A stretch of 7,352 nt of DNA from assembly GCA_046759145.1 (NCBI GenBank), contig JBHIBR010000085.1:1-7352 (forward strand), written 5' to 3'. This DNA comes from JBHIBR01 sp046759145 [NCBI: Nitrospinota bacterium]. Its GTDB lineage: Bacteria; UBA8248. The number at the start of each line of letters is the position of its first letter. Position 1 is the first letter of the stretch. Shown here piece by piece: positions 234-7,352 of the stretch. Under the pieces are notes generated by a model, which saw only the letters and a list, made by a program, of their open reading frames with translations, was not told the origin of the DNA and ran no database searches. The position numbers were made by a program, and so were the translations under genes.

Positions 234-698
234 TCAAAAAGCTAGAGTCCAAAACCCCTCTTTGCCGTTGTAGACAAGCTGGAAGTGACGCAGGACGTCC
301 CTCCCGATGAGGGCGGAATATCCAAGAGATCTAATCTGGCTCCCGACCACGGAGTTGAACGGGAGCGTCGGGATGGGCGTGCCGGGAAAAGAAATGACGC
401 AGGAATAGACGGGTTGTCGGGACGGCCCGTTCGCGGTCACTACCGGGGTGACCCTATGGGGCCTGATGCCCAAGCGGTCAAGGACATCCCGCTCCACTGC
501 CGTGATTGAAGCTCCAGTATCCATGAGCGCGACGCCAACATGCGGTTGCGGGATCGGGATGGAAAGCCGCTGAAGCGCGGCGGCCAAGTGGGACGGGACT
601 GCAATCTCGACCTGGAGGACGGGTCCGTAGAGACTCAGTTGTTCCGGGTCTGGGCCACCCGTCTCTGGGTCTCGGAAGAGACGGCTAAATATGGGCAC
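234..698 (-). CDS. Retropepsin-like (clan AA) aspartic protease
   Basis: This is a small, probably cytoplasmic aspartic protease of the single-domain retroviral type, expected to act as a homodimer with one catalytic Asp per subunit. The active-site motif GVALMDTGAS is present, with catalytic D60 counted from the start chosen here. The second family block, ALIGRDVL followed by HFQLVYNG, sits about 70 residues later, as in retropepsin folds. There is no signal peptide or membrane segment. The frame is open back to a TTG at 716. I prefer the GTG at 696-698 (protein opening MPIFSRLFRD, 154 residues), because that is how I remember bacterial relatives beginning; this rests on memory, not alignment. 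Neither start has a Shine-Dalgarno site. The start lies inside the end of the upstream gene (overlap 14 bases, or 32 with the TTG), so translation probably depends on coupling. Local G+C is low for the window. The substrate is unknown. Confidence 0.85.
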   Translation of the reverse strand: MPIFSRLFRDPETGGPDPEQLSLYGPVLQVEIAVPSHLAAALQRLSIPIPQPHVGVALMDTGASITAVERDVLDRLGIRPHRVTPVVTANGPSRQPVYSCVISFPGTPIPTLPFNSVVGSQIRSLGYSALIGRDVLRHFQLVYNGKEGFWTLAF

Positions 699-936
699 GG
701 CCAATGGCCAAGGCAAGAAGGGGAGCTATCTCAGGTTTTTCCTCTTCAACCACCTTCTTGATGAAGAAGGACTCGAGGCCGAAATGCCGAATCCCCTCCT
801 TATAGGCTTCCTCCTCAGTGGGGAAAACGCCCACCAAGTTCCGCCCCTTGATGAGGGCGAACTGCCCCTCGTGACTTTTGAGCAGCTCCGCCTTTTTCTC
901 CTCGAAGAGCGCCAGCTCTTCCTTGAAAAGGTCCAC
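685..936 (-). CDS. Small DUF5678-like protein, partner gene of the retropepsin
   Basis: This is a small acidic protein of 83 residues from the start chosen here. The first 20 or so residues are a charged amphipathic helix rich in Glu, Leu and Lys. A compact block follows with GQFALIKG, VGVFPTEEEAY and GLESFFIKKV, resembling the DUF5678-type beta-hairpin-plus-helix proteins often annotated as hypothetical; that family match is tentative. The last 20 residues (EEEKPEIAPLLALAIGR and on) look like an added tail and overlap the protease start. The longest reading starts at GTG 942, but the strong Shine-Dalgarno GGAGG (943-947) abuts that codon. It stands six bases from the in-frame GTG at 934-936, which is therefore the likelier start. 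The gene has its own promoter (981-1009) and leads the protease gene, so the two probably form one unit. The function is unknown; a substrate, regulator or inhibitor of the protease are all open possibilities. Confidence 0.75.
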   Translation of the reverse strand: MDLFKEELALFEEKKAELLKSHEGQFALIKGRNLVGVFPTEEEAYKEGIRHFGLESFFIKKVVEEEKPEIAPLLALAIGRAHI

Positions 937-1025: not shown

Positions 1026-1442
1026 TCACCCCTCCAGCAACCTCTTCAGGTTCGCCACCTCCCGCAGGTTCTCCTCCGTCCCCTTGCGGTGGAGGGTTTG
1101 GTCCTCGTAGGCGTCGGTCTCGACGGTGTGGAGGAGGTGGGTGATCTCTCCCTCTTGCTCGAAGCGGTAGGTGATGACCTGCGCCGGCTTTTCCTCCCTC
1201 CCTACAAAGTTGTGCCAGACGATCTTTCGATAAGGCTCCCAGACCACGATCTCGGAGTCGCACTCGCGGCCGTCCACAAAGACCTGGTGAAACCGGGTGC
1301 CGGCCGCGTTGCGCCGCCCCGAGGTGACCTTCACCTCGCGGCAGAAGTCGGCGAACTGGGGGTGGGTCTCCACGTTCCCGATGAAATGGAAGACCTTCTC
1401 GACCGGCGCCCTGATCTTCTGGAGCACCACGACGGGGGGCAT
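1026..1442 (-). CDS. SRPBCC / polyketide-cyclase-like ligand-binding protein
   Basis: This is a complete 138-residue protein with the pattern of the SRPBCC (START/Bet v1-like) superfamily. An N-terminal strand and helix, VVVLQKIRAPVEKVFHFI, begin the fold. The GNVETHPQF segment is typical of polyketide_cyc2-type proteins. Alternating strands follow, including GTRFHQVFV, EIVVWEPYRKIVWHN and VITYRFEQEGEITHLLHTVE. A long C-terminal helix holds ENLREVANLKRLLEG. Such proteins bind hydrophobic ligands in a cavity; some are enzymes and many have no known activity. There is no signal peptide. The ATG at 1440-1442 has a good Shine-Dalgarno GGGAGG at 1449-1454, six bases away. The gene begins 18 bases after the polA stop, so it is probably expressed from the polA promoter, though nothing suggests a role in replication. 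The superfamily call is solid; ligand and function are unknown. Confidence 0.85.
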   Translation of the reverse strand: MPPVVVLQKIRAPVEKVFHFIGNVETHPQFADFCREVKVTSGRRNAAGTRFHQVFVDGRECDSEIVVWEPYRKIVWHNFVGREEKPAQVITYRFEQEGEITHLLHTVETDAYEDQTLHRKGTEENLREVANLKRLLEG

Positions 1443-4353: not shown

Positions 4354-5628
4354 GTGGTCGGACCGGGCGTCCCCCGCGAAGAGCTCCTCGAGCATCTCGC
4401 TGCGCTCATCCGCGGGCGCGAGCAAACGCGCACCTCCCTTGACCAGGGCATCCGCCATCTGCGCCAACTGGAGATCGAGATGCAAGCGCGCCTCCTCGCC
4501 ATCGACCGGGAGCGGACGGGGCTGGAGGAGCGCTTCCACCAAGACCTGCGCCGACGGGAAGGGCTGGCCCAGGAGGAGACGCGTCTCCAGAGCGAACTGG
4601 ACCGGGCGCGCGAGCAGCTCCAGGCGCTTGCCGACATCGAGGGGGTCCATCAGCGGGGGCTCGAGGAGCTGGCGCACCAGGAGCAGCTCCTCTTGCTGGA
4701 ATATGAGGAGAAGGTGACGCGGGCGAAGGAATGTCTGCCGGAGGCCACGGATGGCCTTTCCGCGGCCGGCGCCCGCAGCTCGGGGGGGCGCTTCGAGGAG
4801 GTCTTCACCGAGCTCCCCGAGCTCGAGGAAGGGCCCTCCCCTCCTCCCTCCGAGGAGGTGGAGCGGGTGGAGTCCGTCCCCGAGCCCGCACCGCCTCCGC
4901 CTCCCGGCCCGGCCTCCATGCAGGGGGAGGTGGAGGCGGTAGAAGCCGAGCCGACCCTTCCGCCCGAGCCCGCACCGCCCGCCGCCCCCTCTCCCCCTCC
5001 TGCTTCCGCGCCCGTGCGCCCTTCTGAGCGGCTTGCCCGCCATTTCCAGGAGGGGGGCGCGATTCGCCTCTACGACGGGGAGGGCGAGCTGTGCCTCGCC
5101 TTCCTGCTAGGTCGGGAGGGCGGGAAGGCGGTGCTCTCGGTGGACAGCTTCCTGGGCTACCTGCGGAGAAGATTCCGGCGAATTTACGGTCTCCACGAGG
5201 AGCGGCTCAAGGGGGAGGGCGCCTCGACCGGCGATGGAGCGACATCCGAGCTTAAGGCCACCAAAGAGTTCCTCGCCCGTCTCGCCGGCGCGCTCGAGAC
5301 GGGTCAGGTCGCTCCGGTCCTGGAGCTGAGCGGGACCCGAGTACAGGGGGAGAGCCCGCCCGGCGTGGCCACTTTCGAATATGAGAAGGCCACCGCGCAG
5401 GTGCTCAACGGCCGGGTGATGGCCCTGCTCTCCCAGCTCTTGCGGAGCGATCCGGAGAGCTTCTTCGCCGAAGGGGGGCCCTACTCCGAGATCGCCGAGT
5501 ACCTGAACGGACACCTCGAATACGTCAAAGGGCTGGATGAGGAAGAGAGAGGAGAGGGCCTCCTCGCCCAGCTCGGGCTAGACGCCGGAATGGCGGAACA
5601 ACCGAAGCGGGAGAGAGGAGGCCATTGA
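4354..5628 (+). CDS. Unrecognised protein: N-terminal coiled coil, Pro/Glu-rich linker, globular C-terminal region
   Basis: I do not recognise this 424-residue protein. Residues about 8-128 are a strongly charged heptad-like helix rich in Glu, Arg, Leu and Gln, predicted to form a coiled coil and probably a dimer. Residues about 155-225 are a low-complexity linker of Pro, Ala and Glu, with the PEPAPP motif twice. Residues about 226-395 look folded. They contain a possible beta-hairpin (AIRLYDGEGELCLAFLLG), a basic patch YLRRRFRRIYGL, and helices around EYEKATAQVLNGRVMALLSQLL and YSEIAEYLNGHLEYVKGL. The tail is charged and probably disordered. There is no signal peptide, membrane segment or catalytic motif. 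The GTG at 4354 is the first usual start after the in-frame TAA at 4303. A weak purine-rich AAGGGGG (4337-4343) lies ten bases before it. Third-position G/C is strong throughout, and the promoter is well placed, supporting a real gene. A scaffold or adaptor role is only a guess. Confidence 0.75.
   Translation: MVGPGVPREELLEHLAALIRGREQTRTSLDQGIRHLRQLEIEMQARLLAIDRERTGLEERFHQDLRRREGLAQEETRLQSELDRAREQLQALADIEGVHQRGLEELAHQEQLLLLEYEEKVTRAKECLPEATDGLSAAGARSSGGRFEEVFTELPELEEGPSPPPSEEVERVESVPEPAPPPPPGPASMQGEVEAVEAEPTLPPEPAPPAAPSPPPASAPVRPSERLARHFQEGGAIRLYDGEGELCLAFLLGREGGKAVLSVDSFLGYLRRRFRRIYGLHEERLKGEGASTGDGATSELKATKEFLARLAGALETGQVAPVLELSGTRVQGESPPGVATFEYEKATAQVLNGRVMALLSQLLRSDPESFFAEGGPYSEIAEYLNGHLEYVKGLDEEERGEGLLAQLGLDAGMAEQPKRERGGH
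4879..4979 (+). repeat. 17-base direct repeat in the proline-rich linker
   Basis: The identical stretch CCCGAGCCCGCACCGCC occurs at 4879-4895 and 4963-4979. The copies are 84 bases apart and in the same frame, each encoding a PEPAPP block. This looks like internal expansion of a low-complexity linker, not a mobile or regulatory repeat. Confidence 0.7.
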
Positions 5629-5725: not shown

Positions 5726-5802
5726 TGGCGGGGCCGACGAGACTTGAACTCGCGACCTCCGGCTTGACAGGCCGGCGTTCTATCCGTCTGAACTACGGCC
5801 CC
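5726..5802 (-). tRNA. tRNA-Asp, anticodon GTC
   Basis: This is a complete 77-base tRNA with the CCA end encoded (5726-5728). The 7-base-pair acceptor stem is GGGGCCG with CGGCCCC, with a G discriminator. The D arm is GTTC/GAAC around a loop containing GG. The anticodon stem is CCGGC/GCCGG with loop CTGTCAA, giving anticodon GTC (plus-strand 5766-5768). The variable segment is AGGTC, and the T arm is GCGAG, loop TTCAAGT, CTCGT, with one G-T pair. The G discriminator and GTC anticodon are the expected aspartyl-tRNA synthetase identity elements. It has its own promoter and terminator, so it appears to be a single-gene unit. Confidence 0.97.
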
Positions 5803-5811
5803 GCAAGCATC

Positions 5812-5840
5812 ACGCTAGCACACCTCCCCCGAAGGGTCAA
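5812..5840 (-). promoter_or_regulatory. Sigma70-type promoter of tRNA-Asp, overlapping the end of the preceding gene
   Basis: On the minus strand, TTGACC (5835-5840) is followed after 17 bases by TAGCGT (5812-5817). The -35 matches at five of six positions; the -10 keeps the T, A and final T. The start would fall about three bases upstream of the mature tRNA 5' end at 5802. The TGA stop of the radical-SAM-like gene (5837-5839) lies inside the -35 hexamer, so gene end and promoter share sequence. Confidence 0.65.
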
Positions 5841-7352
5841 GGAAGGGGCGACCCGGCCAGGGAGATGGGAGAGGGCTCCGCCGCCACGTGGGCCCAGGGC
5901 AGCAAGTCCCCCTCCTCCCACCTCCGGCTCACGTAATAGTCGGGATTGAGGTTCTTCCGCGCGCAGGCCGCCCGCCAGTCTCCTCCGAGCCGGTCCACCT
6001 CGACCAGGAGTTCCCCCACCCGGCGGTCTCCCCGGGCAAGGAGGCACTGGATGTAGGCCCACTTGGGAAGGTCGAAGCTCGCTCGCACCCATTGCTCCCG
6101 GCCGAGGAGGGCCTTCAGGTGGCGGAGCTTCCCTTTGAGGGACTCAAGCTCCTCAAAGGCCTCCCGCGCCAAGGGGCCAGAGGGCCGCGGCACGAAGGTG
6201 CGAATCTCCAGGGTGAGCGCCGCTTGCGGGCCTCCCGCTCTTCGGGCGCGTGCCATCCGCCGCTTGAGGGCGCGGACGAGTTGGTGGATGCCGTCCACTT
6301 CTTCGCGGTCCTCGGTGGGAAGGCCGATGAGAAAGCTCATCCGGATCTCCGTCACTCCCCCCCGGAGGAGGACCTCCACGGCCTCCTCGACCGCCTCATC
6401 CGAAACGCCCGCTCCCGCGAGGCGCCGGAGCCTCTCCGTCGCCCCTCCGACCGGGAGGGAAGCTCCCTCCAGAGCCCCCTCCCCGAGCCGCGCGACCAGG
6501 TCCTCGGTGAGGACGGAAAGGGGGAGGTGGGTCAGGGAGAGGGCGCCCCCCCCGGCGCGGACCTGTTCTGCCAGGGGCAGGAGGTCGGGGTGGAGGCTCG
6601 AGGCCTCCCCCACGAGGCCGACCCGATGGCGGAACCGGAGGCCAAGCCTCACCTCCTCCAAGAGGGATGCCGTCGAGCGGTGCCGCAACGGGGCGGGCGG
6701 GAGGCCCGCCTCCCCTCCCCGGCCCGCCTCGAGGAGGAACAGGTGGGCGAGCTCCGCGCGGTCGGTGAGAACGAGGCTACGAGTGGGGCTCGCGTCGAGG
6801 TCGGAGAGGTAGCGCCGGGAGAGGAGAGGAGGAAAACCCCCCTTGGGTTCCAGCCGCCGGAGGACCCCATCCCGGTCGTACTCACAGAGGTAACCTGCGG
6901 GGAGGTAGAAGCCGGGGACCATAGCGAGGCGAAGGGAGGGTTTCTCTCCCGTCCGCCTCAGGTCTCCCTCCTGGAGGGCCGCGGCCAACTCCTCAGGGAC
7001 CCCTTCCCCCTCTCCCAGCACGACGAGGTCGGCGATGGGCGCCAGGGGCTCGGGGTTGCAAGAGGGGGCGACGCCTCCTGCGAGGACAAGGGGTTGGGAG
7101 TGAGTCCGCTCCGACCGGAGGGGGGGGATGCCCCCGAGGCGGAGCATGCGGACCATGTTCAGGTAGTCGTGTTCGAAGGAGAGGGAGAAGGCGACGAGGT
7201 CGAACTCGCGGAGGGGGGTGTGCGTCTCCAGGCTTCTGAGCAACTCTCCGGCCCCGCCCTCCTCCTCAAGGAAGACGCGTTCGCAGGAGAAGTCGGGATG
7301 GGCGGCGAAGAGCCCCCACAGTTTCTGAAACCCCAGGCTCGACATCCCCAGG
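5837..7352 (-). CDS. Radical-SAM-like protein of the cobalamin-binding type, lacking the CX3CX2C cluster motif (5' end outside window)
   Basis: The reading frame is open through the right edge, so the true start is outside. The ATG at 7345 falls within what looks like the family's internal GMSSLGFQ block. Residue numbers here count from that ATG. Residues 1 to about 130 match the N-terminal cobalamin-binding-like domain of TIGR03960-type radical SAM proteins, with a REFDLVAFSLSFEHDYLN segment, then AGGVAPSCNPEP and DLVVLGEGEG. The TIM-barrel-like region runs from about 195 to 390, including SFLIGLPTED (337-346) and FVPRPSGP. The C-terminal block, with CLLARGDRRVGE and LLPWAHV, is also family-like. 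Where GRGCxxxCxxC is expected, the protein reads GRGGEAGLPPAPLRHRS, some seven residues short and without cysteine. The later PEAGSERLR-type motif is PVGGATERLR, lacking the usual Glu. The frame is otherwise intact over 505 codons, so this looks like a maintained but non-catalytic relative, not obvious debris. Family assignment rests on recalled motifs. Confidence 0.75.
   Translation of the reverse strand, partial: LGMSSLGFQKLWGLFAAHPDFSCERVFLEEEGGAGELLRSLETHTPLREFDLVAFSLSFEHDYLNMVRMLRLGGIPPLRSERTHSQPLVLAGGVAPSCNPEPLAPIADLVVLGEGEGVPEELAAALQEGDLRRTGEKPSLRLAMVPGFYLPAGYLCEYDRDGVLRRLEPKGGFPPLLSRRYLSDLDASPTRSLVLTDRAELAHLFLLEAGRGGEAGLPPAPLRHRSTASLLEEVRLGLRFRHRVGLVGEASSLHPDLLPLAEQVRAGGGALSLTHLPLSVLTEDLVARLGEGALEGASLPVGGATERLRRLAGAGVSDEAVEEAVEVLLRGGVTEIRMSFLIGLPTEDREEVDGIHQLVRALKRRMARARRAGGPQAALTLEIRTFVPRPSGPLAREAFEELESLKGKLRHLKALLGREQWVRASFDLPKWAYIQCLLARGDRRVGELLVEVDRLGGDWRAACARKNLNPDYYVSRRWEEGDLLPWAHVAAEPSPISLAGSPLP

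Follow-up and report, generated by a model that had tools for sequence, protein, structure and literature searches.

The window, by which we mean the whole 7,352-nt stretch of DNA analyzed here, carries on its minus strand a gene for an apparent radical SAM protein in which the cysteines expected to bind the iron-sulfur cluster are absent. This locus raises the question of whether the gene is an artefact of the assembly, a gene in decay, or a protein retained for a task other than radical SAM chemistry.

Identity and Domain Layout of the Radical SAM Homologue

The reading frame in question (5837–7351, minus strand) spans 504 codons, with its 5′ end off the contig, in agreement with the initial annotation, which had described an open frame of more than 500 codons. 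The predicted protein matched the whole Radical_SAM_N2 profile (PF19864) with 124.5 bits and, from profile position 25 only, the Radical_SAM profile (PF04055) with 31.6 bits against a curated cut-off of 29.5, which makes it a member of the radical SAM superfamily as a sequence family. With TIGR03960 it scored 205.1 bits, well below the cut-off of 462.3 bits, about 40 N-terminal residues being off the contig; among the motif-bearing short forms of the family, at least one falls just under the same cut-off (446.2 bits) and another exceeds it (489.4 bits). The B12-binding domain PF02310 was matched below its cut-off (26.3 vs. 32.1 bits), and a match to this domain at E 0.01 was present in just 16 of 38 family members. 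The protein can be divided into an N-terminal domain with Radical_SAM_N2 and the sub-cut-off B12-binding match (residues 7–151; 6899–7333, minus strand), a radical SAM barrel region (residues 205–400; 6152–6739, minus strand), and a C-terminal part with the PKWAYIQ and GDRR stretches (about residues 422–490; 5882–6088, minus strand). Structure predictions for the window protein (mean pLDDT 42.1) and for the homologue L001 from a two-row alignment (mean pLDDT 41.7) were both of low confidence.

The window protein shares the PF19864 domain, the order of the barrel, and the C-terminal PKWAYIQ/GDRR with short-form TIGR03960-like proteins, of which we compared 188 (27–41% identity by blastp; 42% at best by another alignment). 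These short forms possess the cluster loop, S-x-R, APEAG, a Lys, a Tyr, K-P-x-T-P-x-Q-W, and a final C-terminal stretch, all of which are lacking in the window protein. The long forms of about 850 codons and TIGR03960 proper are homologous over almost the entire window protein (27–39% identity) and adjoin TIGR03936 genes in two Clostridia records. Trees built from the N- and C-terminal parts, from the barrel, and from the whole protein all grouped the window protein with the short forms and not with the long forms, although its exact place varied and was weakly supported. Besides seven long forms, the trees covered 102 of the 188 short forms, L066, L134, L135, and L105 having been dropped.

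Loss of the Cluster Loop

Around the affected site, the minus-strand frame reads ...FLLEAGRGGEAGLPPAPLRHRS..., and residues 210–226, from GRG to HRS (6674–6724, minus strand), read GRGGEAGLPPAPLRHRS. The locus had been placed at 6676–6730 in the initial annotation; the site is real, with the GRG...HRS segment mapping to the slightly different interval given here. Relative to all 188 distinct short-form homologue ORFs, the gap after GRG amounts to exactly seven residues, where about seven had been estimated, and two cysteines go with it; the third cysteine is aligned with a Gly, so that no Cys remains in the former cluster loop. The flanks had been described as kept; the one after the gap is so only in part, since LPPAP stands there in place of the FVYRP-type residues of the family. 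Conserved residues have also been lost at many further places in the barrel.

The CX3CX2C motif required of a radical SAM enzyme is absent from the window protein, as had been claimed, and residues 205–400 contain no cysteine at all. The five cysteines of the protein are located at residues 23, 98, 156, 436, and 463, which rules them out as alternative cluster ligands within the barrel. A frameshift was likewise rejected as the cause of the absence, since the other frames, on both strands, restore no CX3CX2C at the gap, in line with the earlier translation of the two remaining minus-strand frames. The sequence that follows the gap is conserved, indicating that the frame is probably still read through after the loss of the seven residues.

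Conservation of the Cysteine Motif Among Homologues

To place this loss within the family, homologues were collected from a genome_contigs scan, which yielded one locus (L001), and then from the phylum of the L001 genome and three classes in that phylum. The searched sets comprised 148 and 395 genomes of the phylum (overlapping sets) and classes of 8, 58, and 29 genomes. A family match was detected at E 0.001 in 146 of the 148 genomes and at E 1e-60 in 218 of the 395 genomes. No relatives were found in viral_contigs, and plasmid records contained four distant family members only.

At the exact loop columns, CX3CX2C was present in 188/188 distinct short-form ORFs and in the seven long-form ORFs checked. 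It was also intact in 10 further loci of nine genomes (the new part of 19 loci, the other nine being duplicates of ORFs already in the set) and in four records from other phyla, which, like the seven long forms, retain the motif that the window protein lacks. In total, 209 homologue ORFs were read, the best-ranking among the matches listed, the last fourteen having been checked for distinctness against the other 195 and not among themselves; all carried CX3CX2C and none was motif-less. Since every homologue read has the motif, the window copy has lost it, and a family that never had the motif, which the initial annotation had asked an alignment with TIGR03960-type proteins to distinguish, is rejected. 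Among the matches listed, the nearest full-length relative shares 42% identity with the window protein. A 45% match in genome G396 (residues 2–213) comes from an ordinary gene truncated at a contig end, with the motif intact. For PolA, identity reached no more than 54% across the 395 genomes of the phylum and G396.

Loss of Conserved Residues in the Barrel

Among the 188 short-form ORFs, conservation reaches 93% or more in 63 columns. The window protein keeps 24/25 of these in residues 1–204 and 4/4 after residue 400, and only 17/34 in the barrel (residues 205–400). The difference in retention between the barrel and the ends gave a Fisher p of 4e-5, or 1e-3 once the five loop columns were removed, bearing in mind that conserved columns are not independent and that the five loop columns probably represent a single event. 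No homologue that is complete on its contig loses more than seven of the 34 barrel columns (median 0), and the seven long forms lose only two or three, most columns being common to the long-form paralogue. These counts include the cut-short rows L066, L134, and L135, and missing sequence accounts for 23 barrel losses in L066 and seven in L135. An earlier count over 68 short forms, made with a cut-off of 95%, pointed the same way, with 53/78 columns kept and the 25 misses including residues off the contig.

Of the five lost loop columns, four are gaps and one has Gly in place of Cys. The remaining twelve barrel losses, named by the family residue and numbered as in the window protein, are S275, R277, A300, P301, G304, K314, Y339, D351, K389, T392, Q395, and W396, and most of them fall into recognizable motifs. 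The family S-x-R (S in 187/188 and R in 181/188) is replaced by H-L-P at residues 275–277 (6521–6529, minus strand). In the conserved-column alignment, APEAG is replaced by PVGGA at residues 300–304 (6440–6454, minus strand), where residue 302, acidic in the family (E or D in 187/188, with a gap in one), is Gly in the window protein. A Lys and a Tyr, each present in 187/188, are read as Ala at residue 314 (6410–6412, minus strand) and as Ser at residue 339 (6335–6337, minus strand), respectively, and K-P-x-T-P-x-Q-W has become R-P-S-G-P-L-A-R at residues 389–396 (6164–6187, minus strand). GLPTE is kept in the window barrel.

Residues of the S-x-R, APEAGS, and K type are expected to line the SAM pocket. 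A family profile of 38 rows, the window protein itself being one of them, aligned to the barrels of the solved structures 9ccb, 2qgq, 4jc0 (RimO), and 6fd2 (AprD4) with E-values of 1.5e-17, 4.3e-14, 7.6e-14, and 1.2e-7, respectively. The S-x-R, APEAGS, and K stretches aligned to conserved-looking barrel stretches of these relatives, and 9ccb, 2qgq, and 4jc0 show in the alignment the cysteine motif that is missing from the window protein. With the window protein alone as the query, these four structures were not found.

A 10-nt direct repeat is located at the gap, with one copy beside it at 6703–6712 and the other at 6721–6730 (start-to-start spacing of 18 nt). This is the sole direct repeat of such length within 30 nt across the ORF; after codon shuffling, 0.21 such repeats are expected per ORF, and about 1% of 150-nt stretches contain one. 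Replication slippage could have left the repeat as a trace at the gap. The repeat is also what speaks for an error of assembly or sequencing, in which 21 nt were dropped from the gene of an active enzyme. A repeat of 10 nt is, however, shorter than the usual assembly word length, and an indel cannot produce the twelve other barrel residues lost as in-frame substitutions, nor the substitution of the third Cys and of the FVYR-type residues. We therefore regard an error of this kind as very improbable.

Constraint on the Ends and on the Barrel

The identity of the window protein to the other family members was compared part by part, with the cut-short L066, L134, and L135 dropped from this and from the hydrophobicity comparison. 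Mean barrel identity was 0.304, the lowest of 186 (mean of the others, 0.443). The N-terminal part had a mean identity of 0.388 compared to a mean of 0.425, ranking 29 of 186 from the lowest, and the C-terminal part ranked 55 of 186 from the lowest, within the range of the others. Given the N-terminal identity, the residual z was −5.4 for the barrel and +0.5 for the C-terminal part. The root-to-tip lengths follow the same division: in the tree of the N- and C-terminal parts, that of the window protein was 2.40 (others' mean 2.23, maximum 3.07), in the barrel tree it was the longest of all at 3.16 (others' maximum 2.76), and in the whole-protein tree it was 2.91, less than the others' maximum of 3.09. 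The end branch of the window protein is long in all three trees, measuring 1.15 in that of the N- and C-terminal parts (others' mean 0.35, maximum 1.79).

At columns that are hydrophobic and variable in the family, the hydrophobic character was kept at 33/35 positions in the barrel, 38/38 in the N-terminal part, and 14/14 in the C-terminal part. Among barrel columns conserved at 80% or more, the window protein kept by identity 8/17 hydrophobic, 6/19 polar, and 11/15 G/P/A columns. The barrel core has changed too, as judged by identity at its conserved hydrophobic columns; the hydrophobic character of the variable columns suggests that the barrel fold is probably kept. The G+C content at codon positions 1, 2, and 3 (0.77/0.49/0.85 for the whole ORF and 0.82/0.52/0.86 inside the barrel) is that of a coding gene and is normal for the N-terminal, barrel, and C-terminal parts alike.

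A gene in decay, which lost its activity recently, whose barrel drifted first, and which is as a whole on its way out, would agree with the somewhat lower N-terminal identity and with the absence from the window protein of the orthologues' final stretch after L-P-W-D-F-I, an absence that could hint at decay. The pseudoenzyme reading, moreover, rests on one sequence whose nearest full-length relative is distant, and long open frames arise easily at about 70% G+C. Against decay, the N- and C-terminal parts lie within the ordinary range of identity and tree length and keep nearly all of their conserved columns, the variable barrel columns are still hydrophobic, none of the three parts departs from a normal codon-position G+C, and the sequence downstream of the gap is conserved. 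We consider decay unlikely. Even less probable, in our judgment, is a barrel that remains alive with a new catalytic or binding activity for which no iron-sulfur cluster is needed. The kept hydrophobic character and GLPTE, together with the clustering of the changed residues in conserved motifs, would fit such an activity, but the barrel is the fastest-changing part of the protein, a pattern more suggestive of relaxed constraint than of a newly conserved site.

The twelve additional losses and the ordinary ends speak against both a single assembly error and plain decay, and they fit a retained pseudoenzyme. Catalytic residues are lost on a scaffold that appears to be under constraint, by comparison with distant homologues only. 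The gene is, in our view, probably a short-form TIGR03960-like radical SAM member, of a clade usually found after ftsZ, that has turned into a pseudoenzyme. Among the possibilities raised in the initial annotation this is the best supported, given the motif in all homologues, the further losses in the barrel, and the conserved ends. In the proposed course of events, an in-frame loss of seven residues would have removed the cluster loop, and with the nearby, almost invariant residues lost as well, the barrel would be unable to hold a CX3CX2C-type 4Fe-4S cluster; radical SAM chemistry, to judge from these residues, should not start. Since both ends of the protein and the hydrophobic character of its barrel core remain under ordinary constraint, the gene probably still yields a folded product.

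Genomic Context and Possible Role

In 20 of 21 orthologue neighborhoods, mostly those of the best-scoring relatives, ftsZ lies directly upstream of the orthologue (L001, L074, L075, L086–L092, and L094–L103), and ftsA is also present in 17. At L093, the exception, the contig extends only about 700 nt upstream of the gene. The window contig terminates inside the gene on the side where the orthologues have ftsZ. No description of an ftsZ-linked short-form B12-type radical SAM gene was found in the literature, as judged by titles and the openings of abstracts. In titles and abstract openings on TIGR03960, on ftsZ together with radical SAM, and on radical SAM pseudoenzymes or cysteine-less members, neither a protein with its radical SAM barrel disabled in this way nor an activity of this family is described.

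For the retained pseudoenzyme, the conserved ends lead us to prefer a non-catalytic binding or scaffold role. The likeliest of the possible functions of the window protein seems to be the binding of a partner or ligand by these ends, and the active orthologues beside ftsZ may conceivably have such a binding job too. One form of this role, a sub-case of the pseudoenzyme reading whose probability overlaps with it, is an inactive subunit that forms a mixed dimer with an active copy encoded at another place in the genome. Related genomes often have at least two family members (57 of 58 genomes of one class, typically one short and one long form), and genome G446 has two short-form copies (L233 and L242). 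The motif is intact in both of the latter, as in all short forms read, leaving no precedent among them for such a pair, and we hold the mixed dimer to be rather improbable.

The position of the orthologues suggests a possible link of the window protein to division. That an ftsZ-linked, cobalamin-type radical SAM protein became a non-catalytic division factor in one bacterial lineage is a speculative proposal, which we put forward as an unlikely one. If true, the family would have an additional function that does not depend on its chemistry and resides in the N- and C-terminal parts. A natural protein in which the barrel alone is disabled would separate catalysis from the other jobs of this uncharacterized ftsZ-side family, and would offer a handle on which parts of an active orthologue are needed for any effect that it may have on division.

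Other Features of the Window

The radical SAM homologue is closely followed, on its downstream side, by a tRNA-Asp (gtc) gene (5726–5802, minus strand). An identical scan, which does detect this tRNA in the window, found none in the 21 orthologue neighborhoods. A 424-codon ORF at 4354–5628 (plus strand) had no Pfam or NCBIfam match over the cut-off and showed weak sub-threshold matches of coiled-coil type; a search of 297 genomes of the phylum, run with no positive control, returned no match to it at E 1e-8. The remaining features are an ORF for a retropepsin-like aspartyl protease at 234–716 (minus strand), whose first start codon is TTG, and a small polyketide cyclase or SRPBCC-like protein at 1026–1442 (minus strand), which matches PF03364 over the cut-off.
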